Origin: Hydrogenophaga crocea
Lineage (GTDB): Bacteria; Pseudomonadota; Gammaproteobacteria; Burkholderiales; Burkholderiaceae_C
Assembly (NCBI RefSeq): GCF_011388215.1
Contig: NZ_CP049989.1
Coordinates: 1,736,001-1,800,000 of the forward strand
Direction of reading: 5' to 3'
DNA: 64,000 bases
Of this stretch, positions 13,584 to 62,622 are shown piece after piece (within the stretch, counting starts at the first letter, position 1; every line of letters starts with the position of its first letter). The notes below the pieces were generated by a model. It searched no databases, was not told the DNA's origin, and worked only from the letters and a program-made list of their open reading frames with translations. The position numbers were made by a program, and so were the translations under genes.

Positions 13584-13913
13584 ATGACCCACGTCGTCAC
13601 CGAAGCCTGCATCCGCTGCAAATACACCGACTGCGTCGATGTCTGCCCCGTGGACTGCTTCCGCGAAGGTCCGAACTTCCTCACGATCGACCCCGACGAG
13701 TGCATCGATTGCGCGGTCTGCATCCCCGAGTGCCCGGTGAGCGCGATTTACGCGGAAGAAGACCTGCCCAAGGACCAGCTTCACATGACCGAGCTCAACG
13801 CCGAGCTCGCCAAGCTGCCCACCTGGAAGAGCATCACCAAGCGCAAGGCCCCGCTGCCCGACGCCGAGGAGTGGAAAGACCGCACCGGCAAACTCGGCGA
13901 GCTGATCCGCTGA
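13584..13913 (+). CDS. fdxA: 7Fe ferredoxin FdxA
   Basis: Ferredoxin of 109 aa of the Azotobacter FdI type. The N-terminal cysteines (Cys9, Cys12, Cys17, Cys21, Cys25) and the second cluster Cys40-x2-Cys43-x2-Cys46-x3-Cys50 ([11 protein letters not shown]) fit one [3Fe-4S] and one [4Fe-4S] centre, followed by the usual C-terminal extension. A TAAAAT hexamer at 13547-13552 is a candidate -10, so the gene may also have its own promoter besides read-through from cysN. The next gene, an FNR, starts 2 nt after its stop. Confidence 0.93.
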
Positions 13914-13914
13914 G

Positions 13915-14967
13915 ATGTCCGACATTGCGCCGATCGAAACCGATGCCCTGGTGATCGGCGCCGGCCCGGCAGGCCTGTGGCAGGTGTTCCAGCTCGGCCT
14001 GCAGGGCATCGCGGCGCAGGTGATCGACGCCTTGCCGCACCTGGGTGGCCAGCTCGCCGAGCTCTACCCCGACAAACCGATCTACGACATCCCCGGCCTG
14101 CCGGTCTGCACCGGCCGTGAGCTGGTGCAGCGCCTGCAGCAGCAGGTGCGGCCGTTCGCGCCCACCCTGCACCTGGGACAGTCGGTGACCACGCTGCAGC
14201 GCGAGGCCGACCAGCGCTGGCGCGTGGGCAGCAGCGCCGGCACCACCTTCCTCGCGCGCACCGTGTTCATCGCCGCGGGCGTGGGCGCGTTCCAGCCCAA
14301 ACGCCTCAAGCTCGAAGGCATCGAGGCCTTCGAGCCCGCCCAGGTGCAGCACCGCCTCGACGACCCCGCGGCCTTCGCGGGCCGGCACGTGGTGGTGCAC
14401 GGCGGCGACGACCTCGCGATCGATTGGGCCCTGCGCCTGCTCGACAGCCCCGCCCCGCCCGCGCGCCTGAGCCTGCTGCACCGCCGCGAGGTGCTGGGCT
14501 CGGACGACCCGGCCGCGCTCGAACGCGTGCAGGCCGCGATCGCCGCAGGCCGCATCGCGCTCGTGGTGGGCCAGCCCACGGGCCTGCGCGCCCAGGCCGG
14601 GCGGCTGCAGGCGCTCGAGCTGCTCGACCCGCAAGGCCAGCCGCAAACCCTGGCGCTCGACCACCTGCTGGTGGCGCTGGGCCTGTCGCCCCGCCTGGGC
14701 CCGGTGGCCGACTGGGGCCTGGCGATGGAGCGCAAGCAGCTCGTGGTCCAGCCCGAGAGCTGCGAAACCAGCGAGGCGGGCCTGTTCGCGGTGGGCGACA
14801 TCAACACCTACCCGGGCAAGAAGAAGCTGATCCTCTGCGGCTTCCACGAGGCCACACTCGCGGCCTTCGCCGCGGCCGCGCAGCTGCGCCCCGACGAGCG
14901 CCTGCCGCTGCAGTACACCACCACAAGCCCCAGGCTCAAACGGCTGCTGGGCGTCGCTCCGGGCTAG
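13915..14967 (+). CDS. ferredoxin--NADP+ reductase, thioredoxin-reductase-like type
   Basis: Flavoprotein of 350 aa of the TrxR-like FNR class (homodimeric, no CxxC redox pair). Motifs are FAD-binding VIGAGPAGLWQVFQLG, LGGQLAELYPDKPIYDIPG, a second nucleotide fold with VHGGDDLAIDWALRL, and the C-terminal FAVGDINTYPGKKKLILCGFHEA. It should pass electrons between NADPH and ferredoxin. It starts directly behind fdxA, so the pair is almost certainly cotranscribed, and the position after the cys genes suggests supply of CysI. A TPP riboswitch begins about 40 nt after its stop. Confidence 0.92.
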   Translation: MSDIAPIETDALVIGAGPAGLWQVFQLGLQGIAAQVIDALPHLGGQLAELYPDKPIYDIPGLPVCTGRELVQRLQQQVRPFAPTLHLGQSVTTLQREADQRWRVGSSAGTTFLARTVFIAAGVGAFQPKRLKLEGIEAFEPAQVQHRLDDPAAFAGRHVVVHGGDDLAIDWALRLLDSPAPPARLSLLHRREVLGSDDPAALERVQAAIAAGRIALVVGQPTGLRAQAGRLQALELLDPQGQPQTLALDHLLVALGLSPRLGPVADWGLAMERKQLVVQPESCETSEAGLFAVGDINTYPGKKKLILCGFHEATLAAFAAAAQLRPDERLPLQYTTTSPRLKRLLGVAPG

Positions 14968-14974
14968 GGCCCGA

Positions 14975-14980
14975 TACAAT
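14975..14980 (+). promoter_or_regulatory. candidate -10 (TACAAT) for the riboswitch-controlled transcript
   Basis: GATACAAT lies about 25-30 nt before the first conserved base of the TPP riboswitch, a normal place for its promoter. No good -35 is visible in the 3' end of the FNR gene. Confidence 0.4.
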
Positions 14981-15004
14981 CCGCGCGCGTTTTCACCAAC
15001 GCAT

Positions 15005-15090
15005 CCGCTAGGGGTGTTGTGGCCTTCGCCGGCCGCGACTGAGAGAGTCCCTTCGAACCTGATTGAGGTAATCCTCGCGCAGGGAAGCAG
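15005..15090 (+). promoter_or_regulatory. TPP riboswitch (THI element)
   Basis: All conserved blocks appear in order: AGGGGTG (15010-15016), CTGAGAGAG (15039-15047), CCCTTCGAACCTGAT (15049-15063), then GGTAAT (15067-15072) and GCGCAGGGAA (15077-15086). GCT at 15007-15009 can pair with AGC at 15086-15088 to close P1. A variable hairpin (GGCC-TTCG-CCGGCC region, 15021-15034) fills the middle. Thiamin pyrophosphate binding should lower expression of the receptor gene that follows. A short stem CCGCAC-GCC-GTGCGG (15105-15119) downstream could be part of the expression platform. Confidence 0.93.
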
Positions 15091-15171
15091 CAGCGAAGCA
15101 GCCACCGCACGCCGTGCGGCCCCGGCCGCCCGCCACGCCCACCTGCCATGGACCGTCACCGGACCCACCAC

Positions 15172-17352
15172 ATGGCAACGCACAACCGATTCCGTCTGCT
15201 CCCCGTGGCCCTCGCGGCCGCGCTGTGCGCCACCGCGCACGCCCAGCCCGCCCAGCCCGCCCCGCGCGCCGACACCACGCTCGCGCCCGTCACCATCCGC
15301 AGCGCCGCGCAAGACGCCACGGCCGACGTCACCGGCTTCGGCGACCAGCCGCTGTCGTCGACCCCGGTGAGCGCCACCGTGGTCGGCAGCGATGCCATCG
15401 CCGACAGCGGCGCGCGCACGCTGCGCGACCTCTACCGCTTCGACAGCTCGGTGGGCGACGCCTACAACGCCGCGGGCTACTACGACTACGCGAGCGTGCG
15501 CGGCTTCGTGCTCGACCCGAGCTACAACTACCGCCGCGACGGCCTGCCCATCAGTGCCGAAACCAGCCTCTCGCTCGAACACCTCGAGCGTGTGGAACTG
15601 CTCAAGGGCACCAGCGGCATTCAGGCTGGCACCAGCGCGCCCGGCGGCCTGTTCAACGCCGTGGTCAAGCGCCCCACCAACGAGCCGCTGCGCCGCTTGC
15701 GCGCCGAGGTCAACAGCAACGGCAATGCGCTCACCCACCTCGACCTGGGCGGCCGGCTCGCCGAAGGCGACTTCGGCTACCGCCTCAACCTCGCGGGCGA
15801 ACGGCTCAAGGGCGAGGCGCGCGGCACCGAGGGCTGGCGCGGCCTGGCCGCGCTCGCGGTCGACGCGCGCCTCTCGCGCGACAGCCTGCTCGAAGCCGAG
15901 TTCGAACTCTCGCGCCGCCGCCAGCCCAGCGTGCCGGGCCTGAGCCTGCTCGGCAACGCGCTGCCGCCGGCCGACCCCAAGATCAACATCAACACCCAGC
16001 CCTGGAGCCAGCCAGTGGACTTCCGCAACTTCAGCGGCAGCCTGCGCTACACCCAGGCCATCGACGCGCGCTGGAATTGGCAGGCCCAGCTCGGCACGCA
16101 GCGCCTGCGCACCGACGACTTCCTCGCCTACCCGTTCGGCTGCTTCGACGCCGGCAGCGGCACCTACTATGCCGACCGCTACTGCCCCAACGGCGACTTC
16201 GATCTCTACGACTTCCGCAGCCTCAACGAGAAGCGCAACACCACCGCCGCGCAGTGGCGCATCAACGGCCAGTTCGAGACCGGCGCCGTGGGCCACAAGC
16301 TCTCGGCCGGCGTGCTCACCAGCCGGCTGCGTGTGCGCGGCCAGCCTCAGGCCGACAACAACGCCGCCGTGGGCACGGGCAACCTTTTCACGCTGCCCAC
16401 GCTGCCCGCCGACCCGAGCTTCACCGACCCCTTCACCAACCGCACCGAACGCAGCACCGAGTTCTTCGCCACCGACGTGATCCAGTGGACGCCCGCGCTG
16501 CAGACCTGGCTGGGCCTGCGCCACACGCGCCTGGACCGCCAGAGCGTGCGCACCGACGGCAGCCGCGCCACTGACTACAGCCAGGACTTCACCACGCCCT
16601 GGCTCGCCATGAGCGTGAAGCTCAGCCCCGTGCACACGGCCTACGCGAGCTGGGGCCAGGGCGTGGAGTCGGAGGTGGTGGCGGGCCGCGCGCGCTACAC
16701 CAACAACGGCGAGGCCCTGCCCGCGCTCAAGAGCGACCAGTGGGAGATCGGCGTCAAGGCCGACGACGGCCGCTCGCGCTGGCACGCCACGCTGTTCAAT
16801 GTGGCGCGTCCGGTGTCGGCCGACCGCCTCAACACCGGCGCCAGCTGCAGCGACAGCACGCCGGGCTCGTGCACGCGCGTGATCGATGGCGAAGCGCGCC
16901 ACCGCGGCCTCGAACTCGGGGGCGGCCGCCGCAGCGGTGCGTGGTCGTACGACACCAGCGTGACCTGGATCGACGCCGAGCGCCGCGACTCGGTGCTCAC
17001 GCCCGCGCTCAACGGCAAGCGCCCCACCAACGTGCCGCAATGGGTGCTGCGCGCCAACCTCGGCTACAGCGTGGCCGCGGTGCCGGGCCTGCGCCTGGGC
17101 GCGCACCTCTCGCACGAAGGCAACCGCACGGTGCTGCCCGACGAGTCGATCAAGATCCCGTCGTGGACGCGTGTGGACGCCTCGCTGCGCTACGACACGC
17201 GCCTCATGAACCGACCCACCACCTGGACCGTGGCGATCCACAACCTGTTCGACCGCCGCTACTTCCAGGAATCGCCCTACCAGTACGAACACGTCTACCT
17301 GTTCCCCGGCGCCTCGCGCACCCTGCGCGTGGCGATGGACACCGCTTTCTGA
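15172..17352 (+). CDS. TonB-dependent outer-membrane receptor under TPP control
   Basis: Outer-membrane beta-barrel receptor of 726 aa. A signal peptide (MATHNRFRLLPVALAAALCATAHA) is followed by a plug domain with LEHLERVELLKGTSGIQ and GGLFNAVVKRP, then a barrel ending in aromatic Phe (VAMDTAF). By sequence alone it resembles FhuA-type siderophore receptors. The TPP riboswitch directly upstream instead argues for uptake of thiamin or a thiamin precursor. An in-frame ATG at 15148 would add eight residues before the signal peptide; 15172 is preferred. No other thiamin gene lies nearby. A tRNA-Asn follows. Confidence 0.88.
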   Translation: MATHNRFRLLPVALAAALCATAHAQPAQPAPRADTTLAPVTIRSAAQDATADVTGFGDQPLSSTPVSATVVGSDAIADSGARTLRDLYRFDSSVGDAYNAAGYYDYASVRGFVLDPSYNYRRDGLPISAETSLSLEHLERVELLKGTSGIQAGTSAPGGLFNAVVKRPTNEPLRRLRAEVNSNGNALTHLDLGGRLAEGDFGYRLNLAGERLKGEARGTEGWRGLAALAVDARLSRDSLLEAEFELSRRRQPSVPGLSLLGNALPPADPKININTQPWSQPVDFRNFSGSLRYTQAIDARWNWQAQLGTQRLRTDDFLAYPFGCFDAGSGTYYADRYCPNGDFDLYDFRSLNEKRNTTAAQWRINGQFETGAVGHKLSAGVLTSRLRVRGQPQADNNAAVGTGNLFTLPTLPADPSFTDPFTNRTERSTEFFATDVIQWTPALQTWLGLRHTRLDRQSVRTDGSRATDYSQDFTTPWLAMSVKLSPVHTAYASWGQGVESEVVAGRARYTNNGEALPALKSDQWEIGVKADDGRSRWHATLFNVARPVSADRLNTGASCSDSTPGSCTRVIDGEARHRGLELGGGRRSGAWSYDTSVTWIDAERRDSVLTPALNGKRPTNVPQWVLRANLGYSVAAVPGLRLGAHLSHEGNRTVLPDESIKIPSWTRVDASLRYDTRLMNRPTTWTVAIHNLFDRRYFQESPYQYEHVYLFPGASRTLRVAMDTAF

Positions 17353-17371
17353 CAAGTTCGTGCGAGCGGAC

Positions 17372-17400
17372 TCGAAAACGGCCCAAAATGACGCTATACT
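17372..17400 (+). promoter_or_regulatory. sigma-70-like promoter of tRNA-Asn
   Basis: TCGAAA (17372-17377), 17 nt, then TATACT (17395-17400). The tRNA begins 11 nt after the -10. Confidence 0.55.
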
Positions 17401-17410
17401 CTGAGGCTGT

Positions 17411-17486
17411 TCCCTGATAGCTCAGTCGGTAGAGCGACGGACTGTTAATCCGCAGGTCCCTGGTTCGAGTCCAGGTCGGGGAGCCA
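17411..17486 (+). tRNA. tRNA-Asn (anticodon GTT)
   Basis: Complete 76-nt cloverleaf: acceptor TCCCTGA pairs with TCGGGGA with one G-T pair, D-loop AGCTCAGTCGGTAGAGC, anticodon loop CTGTTAA with GTT, and T-arm GGTTCGAGTCC. The 3' end GCCA is encoded. A strong terminator follows 12 nt later. Confidence 0.97.
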
Positions 17487-17498
17487 CCCAACACACAG

Positions 17499-17530
17499 CA
17501 AAGGCCTTCATCCGAAGGCCTTTGTCGTTT
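17499..17530 (+). terminator. rho-independent terminator of tRNA-Asn
   Basis: Perfect 11-bp stem CAAAGGCCTTC / GAAGGCCTTTG with loop ATCC, followed by TCGTTT. Confidence 0.85.
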
Positions 17531-17566
17531 CTGGAATCCGAGCCATCCGGCACGGCTCTGTCTCCC

Positions 17567-17914
17567 ATGCGCACCCTGCTCCGCCTCGGCTTCTGGCTCA
17601 GCCTCAGCGTGCTGACCATCGCTTCGCTGGTCCCCGTGCAACTGCTGCCCCAGCAGGTCATGAGCATTTGGGACAAGGCCCAGCACGCGCTGGGCTTTGC
17701 GTGGCTCGCGGCGCTCGGGCTGCTCGCGTATCCGCGGCTCGTGTGGCCGCTGGCGGCCGGGCTCGTGCTCTGGGGCGGCGCGATCGAGCTCATGCAGTGG
17801 GGCACCGGCTGGCGCTATGGCGAATGGATCGACTGGCTGGCCGACGTGATCGGCATCACAGCGGCGTTGCTCGTGTGGCACTGCCTGCCCTCACGCTGGA
17901 CGGGTCGCGCTTGA
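17567..17914 (+). CDS. VanZ family membrane protein
   Basis: Small membrane protein of 115 aa with about four hydrophobic helices. It contains the VanZ-like segments IWDKAQHALGFAWLA (DK..H...F) and ELMQWGTGWRYGEWIDWLADVIGI (E..Q......R...DW.A...G). The family is named after a teicoplanin-resistance protein, but stand-alone members like this are of unknown function. The ATG at 17567 is chosen because the upstream part of the frame overlaps the tRNA terminator. It ends 30 nt before aat. Confidence 0.78.
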   Translation: MRTLLRLGFWLSLSVLTIASLVPVQLLPQQVMSIWDKAQHALGFAWLAALGLLAYPRLVWPLAAGLVLWGGAIELMQWGTGWRYGEWIDWLADVIGITAALLVWHCLPSRWTGRA

Positions 17915-26083: not shown

Positions 26084-27733
<1,650 letters not shown>

Positions 27734-61920: not shown

Positions 61921-62622
61921 TCAGGCGGCCGCGGTGGCCGCGCCGCTGCTGATGTCCGCCACGCGCCCCGCCGCCACCGTGATGCGCCGCTCGCAGCGCG
62001 CCGCGATGCCGCGGTCGTGCGTGACCAGCACCAGCGTGGTCTGCTGCTCGCGGTTGAGCTCGAACATCAGCGCCATCACGGCCTCGCCGGTGGCGAAGTC
62101 GAGGCTGCCCGTGGGCTCGTCGGCCAGCAGCACGGCCGGGCGCACCACGAAGGCGCGCGCCAGCGCCACGCGCTGCTGCTCGCCGCCCGAGAGCACCTTG
62201 GGGTAGTGGCCGAGGCGCTCGCCCAGACCCACGCGCTGCAGCATGGCAGTGGCCGCGGCGCGCGCGTCGCGCCGGCCCGCGAGCTCCAGCGGCAGCATCA
62301 CGTTTTCGAGCGCGGTGAGGTTGGCCAGCAGCTGGAAGCTCTGGAACACGAAGCCCACCTTGGCCGCGCGCAGCGCGGCGCGCCGGTCTTCGTCGAGCGC
62401 GAACAGGTCGGTGCCGTCGATGTGAACCGTTCCTTGGGTGGGCGTATCCAACCCCGCCACGATGGACAGCAGCGTGCTCTTGCCCGAGCCCGAAGCGCCC
62501 ACGATGGCCACCGTTTCGCCGCGGCGCACGGTGAAATCGATATCCCGCAGAATGGTCAGCGTGCCTGTGGAGTCGGTGACCGACTTGGACACCTGGCTGA
62601 CCGCAATCATCACATCGGACAT
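61921..62622 (-). CDS. ABC transporter ATP-binding protein (YbbA/LolD type)
   Basis: ATPase of 233 aa of the MacB/LolD class: Walker [11 protein letters not shown]-loop FVFQSFQLL, signature [14 protein letters not shown], Walker [12 protein letters not shown], and H-loop VTHDRG. It resembles YbbA, which in E. coli is encoded divergently from tesA exactly as here. The matching permease (YbbP) is not in the window. The start codon overlaps that of tesA in CATG; an internal Met four residues on is an alternative. Confidence 0.9.

Follow-up and report, generated by a model that had tools for sequence, protein, structure and literature searches.

A thiamin pyrophosphate riboswitch paired with a TonB-dependent outer-membrane receptor in Hydrogenophaga crocea and its relatives: probable uptake of vitamin B1 or a close relative

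We analysed 64,000 nucleotides (nt) of the Hydrogenophaga crocea genome (contig NZ_CP049989.1, positions 1,736,001 to 1,800,000 of the forward strand; hereafter the window), in which a thiamin pyrophosphate (TPP) riboswitch stands in front of a gene for a TonB-dependent outer-membrane receptor (Table 1). Rfam detected a single TPP riboswitch in the window. It matches RF00059 from end to end (model positions 1-105), scoring 58.4 bits where the gathering score is 54.3, with E-values of 7e-9 in the window and 3.8e-11 in a 351-nt search. A preliminary description, made from the letters of the window, had placed a complete THI element at 15005-15090; the element stands in the Rfam search of the leader, and its extent is slightly wider. 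The CUGAGA motif (15039-15044), CCUUCGAACCUGAU and GCGCAGGGAAGC are all present, as are the two strands of P4, CCUG (15058-15061) and CAGG (15080-15083), and the sequence-structure score places the aptamer in RF00059. The promoter proposed in the same description fared less evenly: TANAAT lies at a similar spacing before the aptamer in all 13 loci compared, and a simple sigma-70 scan missed the hexamer of the window. The search of the whole genome (4.56 Mb, a single contig) gave two TPP riboswitches, that of the receptor and one before thiC.

The receptor is the one gene behind the riboswitch, as had been described. Its Plug (PF07715, 49.7 bits) and barrel (PF00593, 120.9 bits) domains identify a TonB-dependent receptor, and the AlphaFold2 model, computed with 58 aligned sequences, reached a mean predicted local distance difference test score of 90.3 and a predicted template modelling score of 0.88. 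Foldseek ranked 9ex3_A (FemA) best and also returned BauA, FhuA and FoxA, with template modelling scores of 0.77-0.82 by query length at about 20% identity. There are two in-frame ATG codons, at 15148 and 15172. We favour the latter, because the CAUGGCA at this start is conserved and its complement (15144-15150) spans the first ATG; the start at 15148, giving 734 amino acids, was rejected, since that ATG sits within the conserved anti-start arm. In the 58-row alignment, in which the other rows are 33-76% identical to the receptor of the window, the plug residues D96, Y98, N99, G102, Y103, N119, R121 and R122 are found in at least 90% of the rows, as is the pair C324/C338. Such conservation would fit one constant ligand.

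Table 1. Features of the riboswitch-receptor locus, in window coordinates
Feature	Position	Strand	Basis or remark
fdxA and ferredoxin-NADP-reductase-like gene	13584-14967	+	Syntenic neighbours upstream of the receptor
Promoter -10-like TACAAT	14975-14980	+	Sequence and comparison of loci
TPP riboswitch aptamer (THI element)	15000-15102	+	Rfam RF00059
Expression platform, 5' arm ACCUGCCAUG	15141-15150	+	Leader alignment, pair counts, minimum-energy fold
Putative Shine-Dalgarno-like GGA within the loop of the hairpin at the start codon	15161-15163	+	Sequence, leader alignment
Expression platform, 3' arm CAUGGCA	15171-15177	+	Contains the start codon (15172-15174)
TonB-dependent outer-membrane receptor, 726 amino acids	15172-17352 (stop included)	+	Pfam domains, AlphaFold2 model, Foldseek
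tRNA-Asn	17411-17483	+	Rfam tRNA; syntenic neighbour downstream of the receptor

Between the aptamer and the gene, UGCCAUG of the 5' arm pairs with CAUGGCA of the 3' arm to form a hairpin that is present in the minimum-energy fold and has the start codon in its 3' arm. The CCUG of the 5' arm (15142-15145) repeats the 5' strand of aptamer P4. In 14 aligned leaders CCTGCCAT is invariant, the block CCUGCCAU lies some 30 nt ahead of the start, and the start itself reads AUGGCA, or GUGGCA in one leader. For a count of the pairs, 115 leaders yielded 109 candidates, 77 of which had the strict anchor context. These 77 loci were chosen by the anchor (CCTG plus upstream context) and not by pairing, and the CCTG predetermines the left partner in each of the first two pairs. 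The six core pairs formed in 64, 73, 73, 75, 73 and 74 of the 77 loci, and four further pairs in 44, 58, 33 and 37. Over the ten pairs 78.4% of the cells were paired, as compared to a mean of 73.2% and a maximum of 76.1% in 500 re-dealings of the arms, none of which reached the observed value; slid registers gave at most 50%. For all 109 candidates the value was 71.7%, against a re-deal mean of 66.3% and a maximum of 69.0%, and the first-start rule lowered the hairpin score by setting wrong starts for a few loci (L147, L175, L189, L198; locus, genome and contig designations beginning with L, G and C are ours). When the platform was folded alone in 68 of the 69 leaders that also had a second codon beginning with GC, the start codon was paired with a mean probability of 0.98, versus 0.53 with the upstream part shuffled. 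The leader thus carries an expression platform able to block expression, as RF00059 members do, and the conserved hairpin indicates translational control; hiding of the start codon is a well-supported mode. Intrinsic termination was discarded as the mode of control, since no plus-strand intrinsic terminator was found in 14850-17600. This hairpin adds a mechanistic layer to the preliminary description.

It seems scarcely credible to us that what looks like a riboswitch is a remnant that has decayed or lost its function. Its RF00059 score lies just 4 bits above the cut-off, some relatives fall below the cut-off, and the folding of the window leader is not unusual; against this, the aptamer core is highly conserved in the 14 aligned leaders, and compensating changes, for example in L186 and L150, preserve the start hairpin.

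TPP riboswitches usually work in the sense that TPP favours the off state, and on this basis TPP would favour the hidden start. With scarce TPP, the leader would let ribosomes reach the AUG and the receptor would be made; with plentiful TPP, the aptamer would fold, the UGCCAUG/CAUGGCA hairpin would hide the start codon, and synthesis of the receptor would drop. The two states may be coupled by the P4 copy: in the TPP-free state, CCUG of the hairpin arm would pair with CAGG of P4. CAGG occupies the other P4 strand in 102 of 115 receptor leaders, and among the 97 loci for which a platform was called, 89 combine it with CCUG[C/T]. Among 61 first-fetched leaders, two of which are receptor leaders, 40 have AAAG or TAGG at that strand. 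This contest between P4 and the platform is an attractive hypothesis which folding supports weakly, and common descent could equally explain the co-occurrence of CAGG and CCUG[C/T].

The pairing of riboswitch and receptor recurs widely in the family. Homologs of the receptor were found at E<=1e-100 in 11 of 67 genomes of the genus (G000-G066) and, with the limit at E<=1e-80, in 190 of the 399 genomes sampled from the family, representing 79 of 141 genera. We examined 100 loci (L100-L199), comprising that of the window, 10 other hits from the genus, the 29 best other family hits and 60 loci picked by hand, in favour of contig room, from lower among the listed family hits (about 160 of the 190 places were listed). 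In 95 of the 100, a TPP aptamer on the same strand ends no more than 220 nt from the projected start. This count was made with a covariance model, R1, built from 47 TPP aptamers, 45 of them from sites not followed by a receptor homolog and none from the 100 loci; R1 kept 11 base pairs, with the P3 loop misaligned, and works mostly by sequence. Rfam was run beside R1 on L101-L139, on L034 and on 19 order-level loci, and L140-L199 were assessed with R1 only, except where their genomes were among 42 scanned for TPP riboswitches (42 of 46 receptor genomes, the four less complete ones being left out). Rfam's own cut-off was reached in 17 of 20 and 14 of 20 receptor loci, in 4 of 7 loci on named contigs, and in L059. 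Four of the five loci devoid of an aptamer, all from one genus (L120, L134, L136, L142), have the receptor directly behind thiE, and in total 99 of the 100 loci show either a TPP aptamer or thiG-thiE directly upstream. The remaining locus, L193 (G294:C1), has neither the aptamer nor the thi row and carries an fdxA-like frame directly upstream. The surroundings are partly kept as well: of the 100 loci, 86 have tRNA-Asn(GTT) behind the receptor, while among the 14 without it 5 offer less than 150 nt of downstream sequence, and ferredoxin-NADP reductase (FNR) or FdxA precedes it in 54 of 99. In one locus, L126 (G270:C39), the receptor frame holds a single in-frame TAA, possibly marking a decaying copy or an assembly error.

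Since the pair is kept in 95 of 100 loci, and the receptor lies behind thiE in four more, the receptor belongs to the thiamin regulon, with a TPP riboswitch or thi-gene context kept in relatives as for outer-membrane receptors of the Omr/OMthi type. A search of the Comamonadaceae for the same pair had been suggested beforehand; its outcome is strongly positive, and with the pair recurring in so many related bacteria, vitamin B1 or a close relative of it is the most likely cargo of the receptor. We consider it likely, with good confidence, that the TPP riboswitch controls translation of a TonB-dependent receptor which imports thiamin or a close relative such as thiamin phosphate or another vitamer. 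The preliminary proposal, in which TPP controls a receptor that takes up thiamin, one of its precursors or a vitamin complex, is thus supported by the conservation of the pair.

Beyond the family, a search of 300 genomes sampled from the order gave 30 with a match to the receptor at E<=1e-60, of which 26 belong to other families. Eighteen of these 26 homologs have an aptamer at Rfam's cut-off, and a nineteenth, L224, has the 3' half of one at a contig end; of the 19 order-level loci given to Rfam, 18 reached the cut-off. A 369-genome sample of the class added two matching genomes beyond the order, both with an aptamer according to the covariance model built here. In a tree of 127 of the 128 receptors (L126, with its in-frame stop, was left out), the receptors of the family and of three other families, 109 rows, formed one clade with a support of 100, in which L193 alone lacks an aptamer, a contig-cut aptamer and the thi row. 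A single gain of the riboswitch was dropped as a clear-cut reading, since among the most distant homologs presence and absence mix: the aptamer-less L235, L236, L238 and L240 group with the aptamer-bearing L244 and L245. In the protein databases, at least 4652 clusters match the receptor at E<=1e-100 among the best 7998 candidates scored.

In some relatives, thiamin genes lie close to the receptor. They stand within about 10 kb of fnr and fdxA in L264-L267, L269 and L271, and since these are the genes flanking the receptor of the window, their proximity is evidence for a thiamin role besides the aptamer of the window itself. The arrangements differ in detail. L264 has the order fnr, TPP-cytX, thiD on the other strand, thiO-thiG-thiE and TPP-receptor, and L271/L153 the order fnr, TPP-cytX and TPP-receptor; in L269 and L276 (the regions of L197 and L185), TPP-thiD-thiO-thiG-thiE is divergent from TPP-receptor. 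In L265, L267 and L268, the wider regions of three of the four thiE-linked loci, a TPP-led CytX-like gene is followed by thiD on the opposite strand and then by thiO-thiG-thiE-receptor; the fourth region, L266, shows the same row with the aptamer present and no cytX found. A contiguous TPP-cytX-thiO-thiG-thiE-receptor operon was therefore rejected, thiD lying on the opposite strand between cytX and thiO. The same opposite-strand thiD between TPP-cytX and thiO-thiG-thiE was seen in all 12 loci of this layout (L042, L048, L052, L056, L063, L073, L077, L090, L264, L265, L267 and L268), which may represent a non-contiguous operon with a transcript running antisense through thiD. Separately, divergent pairs of TPP aptamers 51-78 nt apart, with the receptor on one side, occur in L270 (7578-7846), L269 (13935-14193) and L276 (8172-8448), thiD-thiO-thiG-thiE being on the side opposite the receptor in the latter two.

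Within the window, tblastn with ThiC, ThiO, ThiG, ThiE, ThiB, ThiP, ThiQ and CytX returned only a generic ATP-binding cassette (ABC) ATPase at 62014-62610, which upholds for these proteins the earlier remark that no other thiamin gene is nearby; ThiD, ThiL and others were not searched for. Elsewhere in the genome, the second TPP riboswitch precedes thiC, followed by ThiO-like, ThiS, ThiG and ThiE-like frames: ThiO scores 209.6 bits, below its equivalog cut-off, ThiS is above its own, ThiG is recognised by Pfam, and ThiE by Pfam and below the NCBI equivalog cut-offs. In receptor-bearing genomes, 19 further TPP sites do not precede a receptor (L246-L258, L260-L263, L272, L274). Sixteen of them lead to thiC, followed in 14 cases by thiO, thiG and thiE, one leads to ThiBPQ, and two to nothing recognised. 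The hosts of the TPP-thiC sites look able to make thiamin and to scavenge it as well. The TPP riboswitch of L274 (G170:C1:206508-206615) has no recognised thi gene or receptor within 8.5 kb. The TPP site of L263 (G125:C2:71412-71519) scores 54.2 bits, just below the cut-off; no thiC was found behind it, and distant ABC-transporter matches lie on the other strand. In L094 (G094:C11:385040-385445), two TPP aptamers stand back to back, the first before a short-chain dehydrogenase and then a luciferase-like monooxygenase, the second before a sodium:solute symporter family protein; these may be genes for salvage or breakdown of vitamers.

Once across the outer membrane, the ligand would have to cross the inner one, for which the candidate in the genome of the window is a ThiBPQ-like ABC importer (C1:694488) with no TPP riboswitch of its own. 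Its ThiB passes the subfamily model TIGR01254. Over the 67 genomes of the genus, ThiB is present in 41 and a CytX-like permease in 16, never in the same genome, and the two would be exclusive routes for import of thiamin or a precursor in one genus. Among the genus genomes with the receptor, ThiB is found in 9 of 11 (Fisher p 0.18) and CytX in 0 of 11 (p 0.054), neither being significant versus the rest. Across 80 genera (80 of 136 one-per-genus genomes), ThiB occurs in 1 of 46 with the receptor versus 4 of 34 without it (p 0.16). A strict rule of a thiamin-importer partner was discarded, given the non-significant 9 of 11 in the genus and the 1 of 46 across genera.

The CytX counts bear on the nature of the ligand. 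Instead of intact thiamin, the receptor might import one of its precursors, a pyrimidine or a thiazole, or a vitamer arising from breakdown, such as hydroxymethylpyrimidine. In the Variovorax-like genus and its neighbours the receptor lies near a CytX-like gene, whose family is that of a putative hydroxymethylpyrimidine transporter, and goes with thiD and thiO-thiG-thiE; nine CytX leaders of the genus also have a similar platform, as judged by eye. We nevertheless hold a precursor to be unlikely as the ligand. Nine of the 11 receptor genomes in the genus of the window have ThiB and none has CytX, and across genera CytX accompanies the receptor in 1 of 46 cases and is commoner where the receptor is missing (9 of 34; Fisher p 0.0015, uncorrected for kinship). 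Small neutral precursors, moreover, cross porins easily. Import of a precursor and import of thiamin or a close relative differ in the ligand only and overlap, and their likelihoods are not to be added up to a whole.

Several observations weigh against TPP-controlled import of thiamin or a close relative. In agreement with the preliminary description, homology alone would make the protein a siderophore receptor: its score is above the cut-off of the NCBI siderophore-receptor model TIGR01783 (263.6 versus 223.5 bits), its nearest solved relatives, FemA, BauA, FhuA and FoxA, are siderophore receptors, and among 120 homologs listed, 27 of the 28 named rows read TonB-dependent siderophore receptor or iron complex outermembrane receptor. 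It is nonetheless very improbable that the protein is a receptor for siderophores or iron complexes and stands behind a TPP riboswitch by chance, given the aptamer or directly upstream thiG-thiE in 99 of 100 loci. The protein also falls far below the equivalog cut-offs of FhuA (131 of 803 bits), FoxA (60 of 1300), FauA (53 of 900) and PqqU (42 of 1200), and the window contains no match to the Fur-box consensus with up to 3 mismatches allowed.

The other points against thiamin import under TPP control concern the RNA, the gene context and the physiology. Some receptor aptamers score just 31-42 bits with Rfam, G133, one of the 42 scanned receptor genomes, gave no TPP match, and the aptamer is absent from 7 of 28 distant homologs, namely seven in the order with 32-34% identity. 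Folding predicted no open state: full leaders keep the start paired (mean 0.91; below 0.5 in 1 of 68), the aptamer of the window comes out misfolded when its leader is folded without constraints (z -0.38), and the alternative pairing of P4 with the platform is weak (mean 0.18). The four thiE-linked loci have no aptamer directly before thiO, the opposite-strand thiD intervening, and for this reason TPP control of their receptors is something we only infer. The genome of the window has the thiC-thiO-thiS-thiG-thiE-like genes and therefore looks able to make thiamin. ThiB, ThiP, ThiQ and CytX all lie below the NCBI equivalog cut-offs, and neither a ThiB nor a CytX match at E<=1e-40 was found in 44 of the 46 genera with the receptor, so that no general inner-membrane partner is recognised. 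Finally, in the parts of the Bacteroides study available to us, transcripts of TPP-linked OMthi changed little with thiamine (PMC5613172).

If TPP-controlled uptake of vitamin B1 or a close relative is correct, a large group of proteins is misnamed as siderophore or iron receptors, about half of the family genomes sampled (190/399) regulate B1 scavenging across their outer membrane, and the receptor is a marker gene for B1 traffic in communities of these bacteria. The fixed pairing predicts that the receptor binds thiamin or its phosphates, and the inner-membrane partner for 44 of 46 genera becomes a searchable question. More tentatively, and with some doubt, we propose a broader picture: the receptors may form one high-affinity family for thiamin or its phosphates, spread over the Burkholderiales in bacteria that are themselves thiamin producers and hidden under siderophore and iron names, with a riboswitch that would hide the start by an arm copying P4, and in most genera they would feed a transporter of the inner membrane that is not yet recognised.

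Of the upstream neighbours of the receptor, FdxA is above the NF045490 cut-off and the other gene has a pyridine-nucleotide oxidoreductase domain. An ilvH RNA motif, at 27625-27692 on the minus strand (89.5 bits), is a further RNA element of the window.

Bacteroidetes, SAR86 and Variovorax have provided earlier examples, established or predicted, of outer-membrane receptors linked to TPP. In the literature searched, subscription papers being outside its reach, no description of a Burkholderiales-wide riboswitch-receptor pair was found. The available text of a 2013 survey reports finding, in Burkholderia and Ralstonia, no thiamin transporter genes under TPP control and leaves Comamonadaceae unmentioned in its main text (PMC3766115), and predicted thiamin receptors occupy three separate map regions in the part seen of PMC2771747. 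According to the excerpts of PMC5613172, Bacteroides thetaiotaomicron OMthi (BT2390) has a TPP riboswitch, and its loss in a biosynthesis mutant raises the need for thiamine. OMthi resembles our receptor as a TonB-dependent outer-membrane protein with a TPP riboswitch; unlike it, OMthi comes from another phylum and goes with PnuT. A predicted B1 receptor with a TPP riboswitch before it or nearby, omr/Omr1, has likewise been described in metagenomes, SAR86 and Flavobacteriales, its specificity being called unclear in PMC12442306 (passages of PMC2211319, PMC10881298 and PMC12442306). It shares with the window the prediction of an outer-membrane B1 receptor and the riboswitch, and differs in that it was reported as a homolog of btuB or detected with profiles derived from marine studies; those omr/Omr1 passages do not describe the receptor family of Burkholderiales.

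With the siderophore receptors FemA, BauA, FhuA and FoxA, the receptor of the window shares the plug-in-barrel fold; it is unlike them in its regulation and in the plug residues conserved family-wide. The closest known system is found in Variovorax, where, in the portion of the 2023 report available, a TPP-led thiamine operon holds a TonB receptor-like protein predicted to carry thiamine (PMC10409787). The uptake route, put forward as possibly new in the preliminary description, is to that extent neither isolated nor wholly new. A Variovorax protein found in our search is 55% identical to the receptor of the window and 75-77% identical to those of L120, L134, L136 and L142, which lie in a similar gene cluster, with thiD there on the other strand; because of these identities and this cluster, the receptor-like protein of the operon very likely belongs to the same family, and the genomes of the four loci are probably Variovorax. 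As far as the accessible text allows the comparison, the two systems come from the same bacterial family and very likely have the same receptor, which in Variovorax is one gene of a biosynthetic operon and in the window stands alone behind its own riboswitch. To these systems the present analysis adds the breadth of the pairing, the siderophore and iron naming, the start-codon hairpin, and the 44 of 46 genera with the receptor and without a ThiB- or CytX-like partner.

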